From: Nitrosophilus alvini
Lineage (GTDB): Bacteria > Campylobacterota > Campylobacteria > Campylobacterales > Nitratiruptoraceae
Assembly: GCF_015100395.1 (NCBI RefSeq)
Contig: NZ_AP022847.1
Coordinates: 124,001-188,000, forward strand
Direction of reading: 5' to 3'
DNA: 64,000 bases
A model generated the notes under the pieces. The model did not search any database. It saw only the letters and a list, made by a program, of their open reading frames with translations, and was not told the DNA's origin. The translations under genes were made by a program, and so were the position numbers. Positions 22,301-54,587 of this stretch are shown here, piece by piece; position 1 is the first letter of the stretch; the number at the start of each line of letters is the position of its first letter.

Positions 22301-22329
22301 GTGTGGAACCAATCACCAATCACATTCAC
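22301..22329 (+). repeat. 29-bp repeat, left copy (inverted partner at 24212-24240)
   Basis: These 29 bases are exactly the reverse complement of 24212-24240. They begin GTGTGGAACCAATC. Flanking homology extends further with gaps: the GAATCACGAATCACGAA at 22330-22346 pairs with TTCGTGATTCGTGACTCG at 24181-24198. Together the two copies enclose rnc and aroC. Confidence 0.9.
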
Positions 22330-24211: not shown

Positions 24212-24240
24212 GTGAATGTGATTGGTGATTGGTTCCACAC
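24212..24240 (-). repeat. 29-bp repeat, right copy (inverted partner at 22301-22329)
   Basis: Exact reverse complement of 22301-22329, 25 bases past the aroC stop. The stretch between (24181-24211) is a quasi-tandem of ATTCGTGA-type units. The copy leads straight into the 24-bp tandem repeats. Confidence 0.9.
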
Positions 24241-24308
24241 TCACACTCACACCCACACCAACACTCACACTCACACCCACACCAACACTCACACTCACAC
24301 TCAAACTA
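24237..24308. repeat. 24-bp tandem repeat, three units
   Basis: Units at 24237-24260 and 24261-24284 are identical (ACACTCACACTCACACCCAC then ACCA). The third, 24285-24308, diverges in its last 9 bases. The strand is alternating CA-rich with no G. No gene covers it; a minus-strand frame reading Val-Ser-Val-Gly here is an artefact of the repeat. Confidence 0.92.
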
Positions 24309-41168: not shown

Positions 41169-41387
41169 ATGGCAAAAGATGATGTTATAGAAGTTGACGG
41201 TATAGTCAAAGAAGCGTTGCCGAATGCAACGTTCAGAGTCGAACTCGAAAACGGCCATGTTGTACTTTGTCATATCGCAGGCAAAATGAGGATGCATTAT
41301 ATAAAAATACTGCCTGGAGACAAAGTAAAAGTAGAACTTACACCATACAGCCTGGATAAAGGCAGAATAACTTTCAGATATAAGTAA
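41169..41387 (+). CDS. infA: Translation initiation factor IF-1
   Basis: A-site-blocking OB-fold factor. 72 residues; [43 protein letters not shown] 41169 follows GAGGAGG; the spacer before it holds a small hairpin around TAGAAAAGC/GCTTTCTA. Confidence 0.97.
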
Positions 41388-41406
41388 AGTTTTACGTAAT
41401 TTTTTA

Positions 41407-41412
41407 TATAAT
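41407..41412 (+). promoter_or_regulatory. -10 box upstream of the infA-rpmJ structured region
   Basis: TATAAT, 20 bases past the infA stop. Transcription would begin near 41419, at the first base of the closing helix of the structured region. Confidence 0.55.
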
Positions 41413-41418
41413 AGTGGC

Positions 41419-41600
41419 CTTTTTGGAAACTGCGCGAAGAATCTTTGCATAAATTGCACTGTTTATGCGAGGATTGGTTTAATAGGACTCGTTAAACCTG
41501 TGCGTACCGAAGGATAGTGCAAACAAGGTTGGTCGTACGGCGATATGGTGCTGTTTGGAGCGTAGTAACGAACCGACAGACGTCAGTTTGCCGAAAAACC
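41419..41600 (+). ncRNA. Candidate structured RNA or leader between infA and rpmJ
   Basis: No gene reads through 41388-41699. A TATAAT stands just before it. The ends pair: 41420-41432 (TTTTTGGAAACTG) with 41584-41598, 13 bp with two single-G bulges. Inside are a hairpin 41440-41475 (AATC, GCATAAA / TTTATGC, GATT), a hairpin 41476-41498 (GGTTTAA / TTAAACC, 9-base loop), a CGTAC/GTACG stem (41503-41507 with 41535-41539), and a CTGT/ACAG stem (41551-41554 with 41575-41578). This is not RNase P, tmRNA, SRP or a tRNA by its sequence. It may be a leader for the rpmJ-rpsM-rpsK-rpsD-rpoA part, where S4 control is known in E. coli, or a separate RNA such as 6S. Confidence 0.5.
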
Positions 41601-41607
41601 AAAAAGA

Positions 41608-41676
41608 GGTTGAAGGAGATGAAGGCTGAAGGTTGAAGAGATGTTCTACACCTTCATACCGTATTCTTCTTCCTTC
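41608..41676 (+). repeat. GAAGG-type imperfect palindrome before rpmJ
   Basis: Purine-rich left arm 41608-41640 (GGTTGAAGGAGATGAAGGCT...) and pyrimidine-rich right arm 41645-41676 (…CCTTCATACC...TTCCTTC). Pairing is interrupted; it is the weakest member of the family that also occurs at 43277, 47914 and 54531. Confidence 0.5.
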
Positions 41677-41699
41677 TATAATTCACAGAAGGAGAATAG

Positions 41700-41813
41700 A
41701 TGAAAGTCAGAGCATCTGTAAAGAAAATGTGCGAAAAATGCAAGATTATCAAACGCAAAGGCGTTGTAAGAGTAATCTGCGTAAATCCAAAACACAAACA
41801 GAGACAAGGATAA
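41700..41813 (+). CDS. rpmJ: 50S ribosomal protein L36
   Basis: 37 residues: [19 protein letters not shown], then [16 protein letters not shown]. Three Cys and one His form the zinc site (C-x2-C...C-x4-H). AGAAGGAG precedes the ATG; rpsM follows after 3 bases. Confidence 0.96.
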
Positions 41814-41816
41814 CAA

Positions 41817-42179
41817 ATGGCAAGGATTGCTGGTGTTGATCTACCCAAAAAGAAAAGAATAGAGTATGCACTTCCGTATATATACGGTATAGGACTTACT
41901 ACATCAAGAAAGATTCTTGATGCTATCGGTATATCATATGACAAAAGAGTCTATGAGCTTACCGAAGAAGAAGTTGCAAAAATCAACAAAGAGATCCGCG
42001 AAAACTATATGGTTGAGGGTGATCTTAGAAAAAAAGTGGCTATGGATATAAAAGCGCTCATGGATATAGGGTGCTACAGAGGTTTAAGACACAGAAGAGG
42101 TCTTCCTGTAAGAGGCCAGAGAACAAAAACAAATGCCAGAACAAGAAAAGGCAAAAAGAAAACCGTAGGTTCAAAATAA
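41817..42179 (+). CDS. rpsM: 30S ribosomal protein S13
   Basis: Head protein of the 30S that bridges to L5. 120 residues; [25 protein letters not shown] and [24 protein letters not shown]. Confidence 0.97.
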
Positions 42180-42196: not shown

Positions 42197-42586
42197 ATGG
42201 CTAAGAGAAGAATTAGAAAAAAGGTTGTAAAAAAGAATATAGCAAAAGGTGTAGTCTATATCTCTGCAACCTTTAACAACACTGTTGTTACTGTTACTGA
42301 TGAAATGGGCAACGTCATTGCATGGAGCAGTGCCGGAAGCCTTGGATTCAAAGGAAGCAAGAAATCGACTCCTTTCGCGGCTCAGCAAGCTGTTGAAGAT
42401 GCTATGACAAAAGCAAAAGAGCACGGCATAAAAGAAGTCGGGATTAAAGTACAGGGACCAGGAAGCGGAAGAGACACCGCTGTAAAATCAGTGGGTGCCA
42501 TAGAAGGTATAAGAGTCCTGTTCTTTAAAGATATTACACCGTTACCACACAACGGATGCAGACCTCCAAAAAGAAGAAGAGTATAA
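42197..42586 (+). CDS. rpsK: 30S ribosomal protein S11
   Basis: Platform protein near the E site. 129 residues; [17 protein letters not shown] and [34 protein letters not shown]. Confidence 0.97.
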
Positions 42587-42651: not shown

Positions 42652-43278
42652 ATGGCTAGATATAGAGGTCCGGTTGAAAAAATCGAGAGAAGATTGGGTG
42701 TTAGCTTGGCACTTAAAGGCGAAAGAAGGTTGGCCGGTAAAAGTGCTCTTGAAAAGAGACCATATGCTCCGGGTCAACATGGACAAAGAAGAGCAAAAAT
42801 TTCCGAATACGGTTTGCAGCTTAGAGAAAAGCAAAAAGCAAAGTATATGTATGGAGTTTCCGAAAAACAATTTAGAAATCTGTTTAAAGAAGCTGCAAGA
42901 ATGGAAGGAAATACAGGTGCAAACCTGATAACTCTTCTTGAAAGAAGACTTGACAATGTTGTTTACAGAATGGGCTTTGCAAGTACAAGAAGATTTGCAA
43001 GACAGCTTGTAAACCACGGACATGTTCTTGTTGACGGAAGAAGAGTGAATATCCCTTCTTACAGAGTTAAGCCCGGACAAAAAATTGAGATAAGAGAAAA
43101 ATCAAAAAACAATCCTCAGGTACAAAGGTCTTTGGAACTTACTGCTCAGACAGGGATTGTACCTTGGGTTGATGTTGATAAAGATAAAGTATTTGGCATA
43201 TTTACCAGACTTCCCGAAAGAGAAGAGGTTGTAATCCCTGTAGAAGAGCGTCTAATAGTCGAGCTATACTCCAAGTAA
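42652..43278 (+). CDS. rpsD: 30S ribosomal protein S4
   Basis: Initiates 16S assembly and, in E. coli, represses the alpha operon. 208 residues, starting [18 protein letters not shown]; no cysteines, so the zinc-free form. The S4 RNA-binding domain [39 protein letters not shown] is clear. Its stop lies in the arm of a GAAGG-type palindrome. Confidence 0.97.
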
Positions 43279-43355
43279 GGTAGAAGGAGATAAGGCAGAA
43301 GGCAGGAGAGTTTTGTTATATATTCTTCAACCTTCGACCTTCAGCCTTCGACCTT
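43277..43355 (+). repeat. GAAGG-type long palindrome between rpsD and rpoA
   Basis: Left arm 43277-43310 is AAGGTAGAAGGAGATAAGG... ; right arm 43324-43355 is TCTTCAACCTTCGACC... ending CGACCTT. The AAGG, GAAGG, AAGG, GAAGG and AGA blocks of the left arm match the right arm in register with small mismatched joints. Loop about 13 bases. Confidence 0.75.
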
Positions 43356-43388: not shown

Positions 43389-44387
43389 ATGAAAAAAATA
43401 AAAACTTCGCCATTTATGCCGTCAGAAGTTGAGATTGCAAAAGTATCAGATAATGAAATTAAAATAGAAGCGTATCCTTTTGAAAGCGGATATGCCATAT
43501 CTTTGGCTCATCCGTTAAGAAGACTGCTTCTAAGTAGTACTATAGGATATGCCCCTATAGCCGTCAAAATAGAAGGGGCCTCTCATGAATTTGACAGCAT
43601 CAGAGGAATGCTTGAAGATGTGGCTGTATTTATAATAAATTTAAAAAATATACGCTTCAAGCTTAAAAACGATGCAGAAAAAGTTGAAGTCAACTATGAA
43701 TTCACAGGTCCCAAAGAGATATACGGAAAAGATATGGAAACAGAAGAGGTGGAAGTAGTTACACCTGAAAACTTTCTTGCAACTCTCAACGAGGATGCAG
43801 AGGTAAAATTCTCTCTTATTATTCATAAAGGTATCGGTTATGTACCTAGTGAAGAGATAAGGGAGGAGTTGCCAGAGGGATATATTCCTCTTGATGCATT
43901 CTTTACTCCCGTAAGAAAAGCGGTTTATGAGATAGAAAATATTCTTGTCGAAGACAATCCGAATTTTGAAAAGATTGTATTCAATATTCAGACAGATGGC
44001 CAGATAGACCCGTTGAGTGCATTTAAAGATGCTTTGGGTGTTATGTACAAACAGATGTCTGTTTTCAATAATGAACTCAATATCGATATAGTTCAAAGTG
44101 CGGAAACACAAGAAGAGATACCCGGATTGAAAAAGCTTCTTCAAAAGATCGAAGCGCTCAATCTAAGCGCAAGAAGCCATAACTGTTTGGAAAGAGCGGG
44201 TATAAAATATATAGGTGAGTTGGTCCTTATGACCGAAAATGAACTCAAAAATGTTAAGAATCTCGGAAAAAAATCTCTTGAAGAGATAAAAGAAAAACTT
44301 GAAGAGTTGGGTTTTTCTCCGGAAAAAGGTCTAAGCAGCGAAGAGGCTGAGGCATTGAAAAAAAGAATCGAAAAGATCAAGTCCTAA
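43389..44387 (+). CDS. rpoA: RNA polymerase alpha subunit
   Basis: Assembly platform for beta and beta' with a C-terminal domain for UP elements and activators. 332 residues; N-terminal [30 protein letters not shown] and C-terminal [47 protein letters not shown]. Expected length. Confidence 0.97.
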
Positions 44388-54530: not shown

Positions 54531-54587
54531 AAGGGAAGAAGGTAGAAGGCAGAAGAAAAATTCTTCATCCTTCGTCCTTCATCCTTT
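54531..54587 (+). repeat. GAAGG-type palindrome between rpmG and tRNA-Trp
   Basis: Left arm 54531-54557 is AAGGGAAGAAGGTAGAAGG..., loop AAA, right arm 54561-54587 ends CTTCATCCTTT. 27-base arms in register with about 20 pairs; each GAAGG block pairs and the two-base joints between blocks mismatch. The clearest member of the family. Confidence 0.85.

Follow-up and report, generated by a model that had tools for sequence, protein, structure and literature searches.

A conserved structured RNA upstream of rpmJ is a probable S4-responsive leader of the alpha-type operon in Campylobacterota

Genes and promoter at the locus

We analysed a 64,000-nucleotide stretch of Nitrosophilus alvini contig NZ_AP022847.1 (positions 124,001 to 188,000; hereafter, the window), in which infA and rpmJ are separated by a gap of 312 bases (41388-41699). 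The first-pass annotation of this DNA had given the same gap size, which was confirmed, and had described the gap as free of open reading frames; those present are small and chance-like. It had also placed a TATAAT at the start of the gap, where it is indeed found (41407-41412, forward strand), and we read this box as the -10 element of the leader's own promoter, with an expected transcription start at ~41418-41420. A TANAAT box occurs in 50 of 70 homologs within 32 nt upstream of a conserved ACUG motif, most often at a distance of 21-24 nt across the 70 aligned members.

Downstream on the same strand lie the Shine-Dalgarno sequence of rpmJ (AAGGAG, 41689-41694) and an operon with the order rpmJ-rpsM-rpsK-rpsD-rpoA-rplQ, as assigned with Pfam. 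Its genes are rpmJ (L36; 41700-41813; PF00444, 3.3e-20), rpsM (S13; 41817-42179; PF00416), rpsK (S11; 42197-42586; PF00411), rpsD (S4, the proposed ligand of the leader; 42652-43278; PF00163 and PF01479), rpoA (43389-44387; PF01000 and PF03118) and rplQ (L17; 44398-44748; PF01196). The presence of rpsD agrees with Epsilonproteobacteria generally, whose alpha operon is E. coli-like and retains this gene (PMC10931766). In the S4 protein encoded in the window, an N-terminal ExxE..RxxxxS pattern replaces the zinc-binding cysteines; the C-(II) form of S4, which is without these cysteines, is said to be exclusive to Epsilonproteobacteria (PMC3087516).

A covarying junction with a pseudoknot

The region 41407-41610 folds with an energy of -65.3 kcal/mol compared to -49.8 +/- 4.1 kcal/mol for dinucleotide shuffles (z = -3.75; none of the 200 shuffles reached this energy). 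For the conserved core (41418-41523, forward strand; covariance-model match at 41413-41529, 107 bits), z was -3.54 and again 0 of 200 shuffles were equally good. The core is predicted to form a three-way junction in which a helix, P1, closes two others, P2 and P3, and to which the loop of P2 adds a pseudoknot that was missed in the first reading. On the forward strand of the window, the 5' strand of P1 (41429-41436, AC-U-GCGCG) pairs with 41499-41505 in the minimum free energy (MFE) structure of the core and is followed by GAAGA (41436-41440), which is 93-99% conserved. P2 (41440-41452 with 41463-41475) carries double compensatory changes in 12 of its 13 pairs with 96.7% of cells paired, and P3 (GGUUUAAU at 41476-41483 with GUUAAACC at 41491-41498) in 6 of 8 pairs with 94.4% paired; the 3' strands of both were assigned by covariation in homologs. 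The 5' strand of the pseudoknot, UUGCACUGU, lies in the P2 loop (41454-41462) and forms 9 bp with AUAGUGCAA (41514-41522), a partner recognized from the complementarity of loop and 3' region in 65 homologs. The conserved unpaired motif in the consensus of homologs is CUNNNNGAAGA. In the window, a lineage-specific hairpin (41499-41538) holds the 3' strand of the pseudoknot in its loop, so the contact would be of the loop-loop type there.

These boundaries differ from those of the first-pass annotation, which had drawn a closed shape reaching 41600, held together by a 13-bp helix with two bulges (41420-41432 with 41584-41598) around internal hairpins. The closing helix is present in the letters but is not conserved, and we rejected it because its 3' half falls in an insertion (41523-41601, forward strand) that is absent from homologs and because the MFE structure closes elsewhere. 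Among the hairpins, those at 41440-41475 and 41476-41498 stood as present and conserved, but the third region lies inside the insertion, so that the conserved RNA stops at ~41522. When DNA from 60 relatives was searched, related genomes had the 5' half of the element at the corresponding position, but the 3' half was not found there.

Covariation in the core is strong. For P2, P3 and the pseudoknot together, 95.0% of pair cells were standard and double changes occurred in 21 of 26 pairs; doubly changed cells numbered 292 compared to 73 in shuffles, and slid controls were paired at <=48%. Compensatory changes in P2 and P3 were already present in the first 15 aligned sequences. The letters of the pseudoknot covary among homologs (GCAC/GUGC, CCAC/GUGG, UACAC/GUGUA, CCGC/GCGG, GCACC/GGUGC and GGGA/UCCC), and its complementarity in 65 homologs reached 976 compared to 816 +/- 19 for permuted partners (maximum 876; >8 s.d.), a score to be read as supportive and not as a probability, given that the permutation leaves relatedness in. 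Across families, complementarity of the P1 strands was 816 compared to 738 +/- 19 when permuted; this helix is clear in Sulfurimonas-like, Sulfurospirillum-like and Campylobacter-like members (UGCGU/ACGCA, AAACUGU/ACAGUUU and GCUGUAU/AUGCAGC) and weaker in the window's own family. On this comparative evidence, we take the structured leader RNA to be real and its predicted fold to be evolutionarily kept across much of Campylobacterota.

Distribution and genomic context

The annotation had proposed searching Campylobacterota for covarying homologs, and such homologs, with compensatory changes in their stems, were found widely. A first covariance model, based on 15 aligned sequences and two helices, matched 207 of 399 genomes of the order, representing 54 of 87 genera, while a second model (R2), built from 70 sequences, matched 193 in a set of 397 genomes from the phylum. 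Named loci with the leader include those of Nitratiruptor, Hydrogenimonas, Sulfurospirillum diekertiae, Campylobacter concisus and several Campylobacteraceae MAGs, and the genome of the window has a single copy. Arcobacteraceae-like genomes (f9; family name inferred) have a divergent member (L208 and L209). R2 gave no convincing match in named Helicobacter loci or in the tested genomes of families f2, f8, f14, f15, f17, f18 and f23, and a match in family f16 (L211, E = 0.04) was set aside, as rpmJ was not nearby.

In all of the 76 loci examined, the leader is directly upstream of rpmJ and on the same strand. Upstream of the leader, infA is present in 67 loci and was not found in 9; because rpmJ adjoins the leader even in these 9, the leader tracks rpmJ, not infA. 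Between the end of the pseudoknot's 3' strand and the rpmJ start codon there are 18-27 nt in 51 of 70 members (mode 20-22), and the distance is mostly larger in the rest. Two general hallmarks of ribosomal-protein leaders are found here, namely a constant sense-strand site before ribosomal-protein genes and a covarying structure.

Comparison with known leaders

An Rfam scan, also proposed in the annotation, gave no match on the leader at gathering score: with Rfam 15, the only matches in the window at this threshold were tRNAs. When 41380-41720 was searched at E up to 10, only chance-level matches appeared, and the weak ones to sR52, microRNAs and U2, all below gathering scores, were rejected as chance.

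Like the E. coli alpha-operon leader (Alpha_RBS), the Campylobacterota leader precedes the rpsM-rpsK-rpsD-rpoA-rplQ core and has a pseudoknot near the first ribosome-binding site. The annotation's view that the fold is not the known alpha pseudoknot nonetheless holds, with no sequence or structure match to Alpha_RBS at gathering score or at E up to 10 (41380-41720). In E. coli, the rpsM ribosome-binding site is part of the pseudoknot (PMC10931766), whereas the Campylobacterota pseudoknot ends ~21 nt upstream of rpmJ, and the P1/P2/P3 junction is a feature of the Campylobacterota leader, unlike Alpha_RBS. The S4 leader candidates of Fusobacteriales and Clostridia (Eckert and Weinberg 2020, PMC7247131) are likewise predicted, from comparative genomics, to be autoregulatory leaders of rpsM-rpsK-rpsD-rpoA-rplQ, but they belong to other taxa, and the Campylobacterota leader has no Rfam match. 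Their GUAA (Fusobacteriales) and GAAA (Clostridia) are not conserved unpaired in the Campylobacterota leader, in contrast to CUNNNNGAAGA; a conserved unpaired GUAA, which imitates 16S rRNA, is absent from the leader consensus, and GUAA occurs only within the covarying P2 stem of some members. GAAGA and GCACC/GGUGC resemble elements of 16S h16/h18, but the longest words in common with 16S (9 nt) map elsewhere in that molecule. For the Bacillus rpsD leader, S4 autoregulation through a 5' UTR has also been proposed, but this leader precedes rpsD alone and is without a pseudoknot (PMC10931766).

Our literature search covered main texts and found in them no published description of this leader, no leader for the epsilonproteobacterial alpha operon and no transcription starts upstream of rpmJ in Campylobacter. 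Within that literature, the leader is a new ribosomal-leader class: regulators of this kind are known, whereas its structure and its phylum are new. The suggestion of a novel ribosomal leader in the annotation is thus borne out by the compensatory changes, the invariable position upstream of rpmJ and the lack of a matching Rfam family. Regulation of the alpha operon outside Gammaproteobacteria and Firmicutes is largely open, and this RNA would be a structured cis-regulator across a large part of Campylobacterota, including Campylobacter and Sulfurospirillum, offering a testable S4 target and adding an independent solution for RNA recognition by S4.

Proposed function and rival explanations

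We consider it rather likely that this RNA is a cis-acting leader of the alpha-type rpmJ-rpsM-rpsK-rpsD-rpoA-rplQ operon of Campylobacterota with S4 as the likely ligand, and it is probably a switch that tunes the amount of ribosome parts made. S4 is the most likely ligand to judge from other phyla, since regulation of this operon by S4 is known or predicted in Gammaproteobacteria, Clostridia and Fusobacteriales (PMC7247131). In Gammaproteobacteria, excess S4 represses the alpha operon through its leader; for Clostridia, Fusobacteriales and Bacteroidia, S4 leaders have been predicted (PMC7247131, PMC10931766).

From the fold, covariation, location and spread computed here, we infer the following direction of control and translational step. 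The promoter between infA and rpmJ would yield a leader transcript that folds into the three-way junction, with P1 closing P2 and P3. The P2 loop would then pair with the strand ending ~21 nt before the rpmJ start, which in most species is just upstream of the Shine-Dalgarno sequence, and this placement points to control at the step where ribosomes load on rpmJ. Free S4 in excess, translated from this same mRNA, would bind the junction or pseudoknot and stabilize the fold, ribosomes would be unable to load on rpmJ or would be trapped there, and translational coupling would then reduce expression of the downstream genes. We also considered whether the 5' CCCUUUUU end of the leader might sequester the Shine-Dalgarno sequence, which the permutation test did not support (566 compared to 604 +/- 14 permuted).

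The same cis leader could instead respond to a ligand other than S4 (for example, S13, S11, L36, L17 or the 30S subunit/S1), or be a constitutive element that enhances translation or stabilizes the RNA, an option that we judge doubtful while granting it a real share of the probability. A different ligand would suit an operon whose first gene is rpmJ and not rpsM and a leader that does not clearly mimic the S4 site of 16S rRNA, and pseudoknots upstream of ribosome-binding sites can be targets of S1 or the 30S subunit (PMC10931766); against it, S4 is known or predicted to regulate operons of this type in several other phyla (PMC7247131). As for a mere enhancing element, such long covarying helices need not be kept.

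An independent small RNA with its own promoter, located by chance between infA and rpmJ, seems unlikely, because most species keep an almost constant spacing to the start codon of rpmJ (mode 20-22 nt), rpmJ is always downstream, even where infA was not found upstream, and no terminator-like site follows the leader on its strand in the window. It would account for the -10 box, the large spacers of some lineages and a terminator-like hairpin that we saw by eye after the pseudoknot in three Hydrogenimonas genomes. That same arrangement of A-tract, hairpin and U-tract right after the pseudoknot (L055, L058 and L061; the pattern scan is without it) could alternatively mark a transcription attenuator, in which formation of a terminator beside the pseudoknot would depend on S4, which also acts in antitermination (PMC10931766), or on the ribosome. 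We give this reading very little weight, as we saw no such terminator in the window or genus g2, nor in the compact majority, whose pseudoknot directly adjoins the Shine-Dalgarno region. A divergent 6S RNA, which the annotation had offered on the strength of its long closed shape, can be practically discounted: the leader resembles 6S RNA (RF00013) in length class only, differing in architecture and genomic context, its supposed closing helix is not conserved and its conserved structure is tied to rpmJ. No RF00013 match was found in the genome, nor any Rfam 6S match at the locus even at E up to 10, and the 6S RNA of C. jejuni is a separate 185-nt RNA (PMC3847290).

The infA-rpmJ gap in Helicobacter

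In gastric Helicobacter, infA and rpmJ are only 57-77 nt apart and the leader RNA is absent. The H. pullorum/rodentium group has a 207-261 nt gap with a different conserved RNA, possibly a second leader at this position that is unrelated to the first. This enterohepatic Helicobacter RNA was located at L115:3612-3735 and L116:3530-3655, with equivalents in L123, L125, L127-L131, L134 and L136; its consensus is AUAGUCGUUURGGUG..GACUAUAAACUCAAUGCCUA..UAGGAAG, and it has no Rfam match. It may contain a covarying loop pseudoknot (UUUGGAA/UUCCAAA vs UGAAU/AUUCA), for which 45 of 1000 permutations were as good, weaker support than for the main leader.

A bolder proposal, which we advance tentatively and think somewhat more apt to be wrong than right, is that Campylobacterota possess an alpha-leader class of their own, made of the junction and P2-loop pseudoknot, that would recognize the zinc-less S4 by a novel route, and that this class was lost in gastric Helicobacter and swapped in enterohepatic Helicobacter for an unrelated leader with a similar pseudoknot plan. 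If true, the RNA switch of one operon would have been exchanged within one order, making the turnover in Helicobacter a natural case of switch loss and replacement.

Insertions and repeats between leader and rpmJ

The insertion that parts the leader from rpmJ in the window recurs just once in the rest of the genome, as a partial copy (G000:C1:27684-27730, 85% over 47 nt). Upstream of the rpmJ ribosome-binding site lies a dispersed AAGGTTGAAGG-type inverted repeat (41603-41690, no strand assigned), with similar repeats in the window and genome. Repeats of this type, often in inverted pairs, are found at 41606-41639, 43277-43355 and 54539-54586 of the window, in intergenic sites before rpmJ, between rpsD and rpoA and near a tRNA (11 matches compared to 1.6 expected). 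Copies resembling AAGGTTGAAGG also occur beyond the 3' ends of 16S genes and in relatives.

Leader and rpmJ are parted by 100-450 nt of repeats in Hydrogenimonas and the genus-g2 relatives, and the window's genome is likewise spaced. With such spacers, simple occlusion of the ribosome-binding site does not fit, and the regulatory step in this organism and a few relatives may differ, acting on RNA stability or transcription. The terminator-like element directly 3' of the pseudoknot in the three Hydrogenimonas-family loci (for example, AAAAACCGCTTTCAGCGGTTTTT), which was read by eye and is absent from the pattern-scan list, hints at attenuation or a free leader RNA in Hydrogenimonas.

Directly before rpmJ, four Hydrogenimonas loci (L055, L057, L060 and L061) have in common GCGCGGTT..CTGCGCGTGAGCCCTCCGCTGAGGAGAACTCAGCGTTAGCGTAGTT..AACGTATTAAGGAG, which is duplicated in L057, and further GGGCCCGCTGCCGAAGCGGAC-type repeats lie within the Hydrogenimonas spacers. 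Elsewhere in the window, a perfect 24-bp tandem repeat (ACACTCACACTCACACCCACACCA) occupies 24236-24307, and further short tandem arrays are located at 22311 and 24180.
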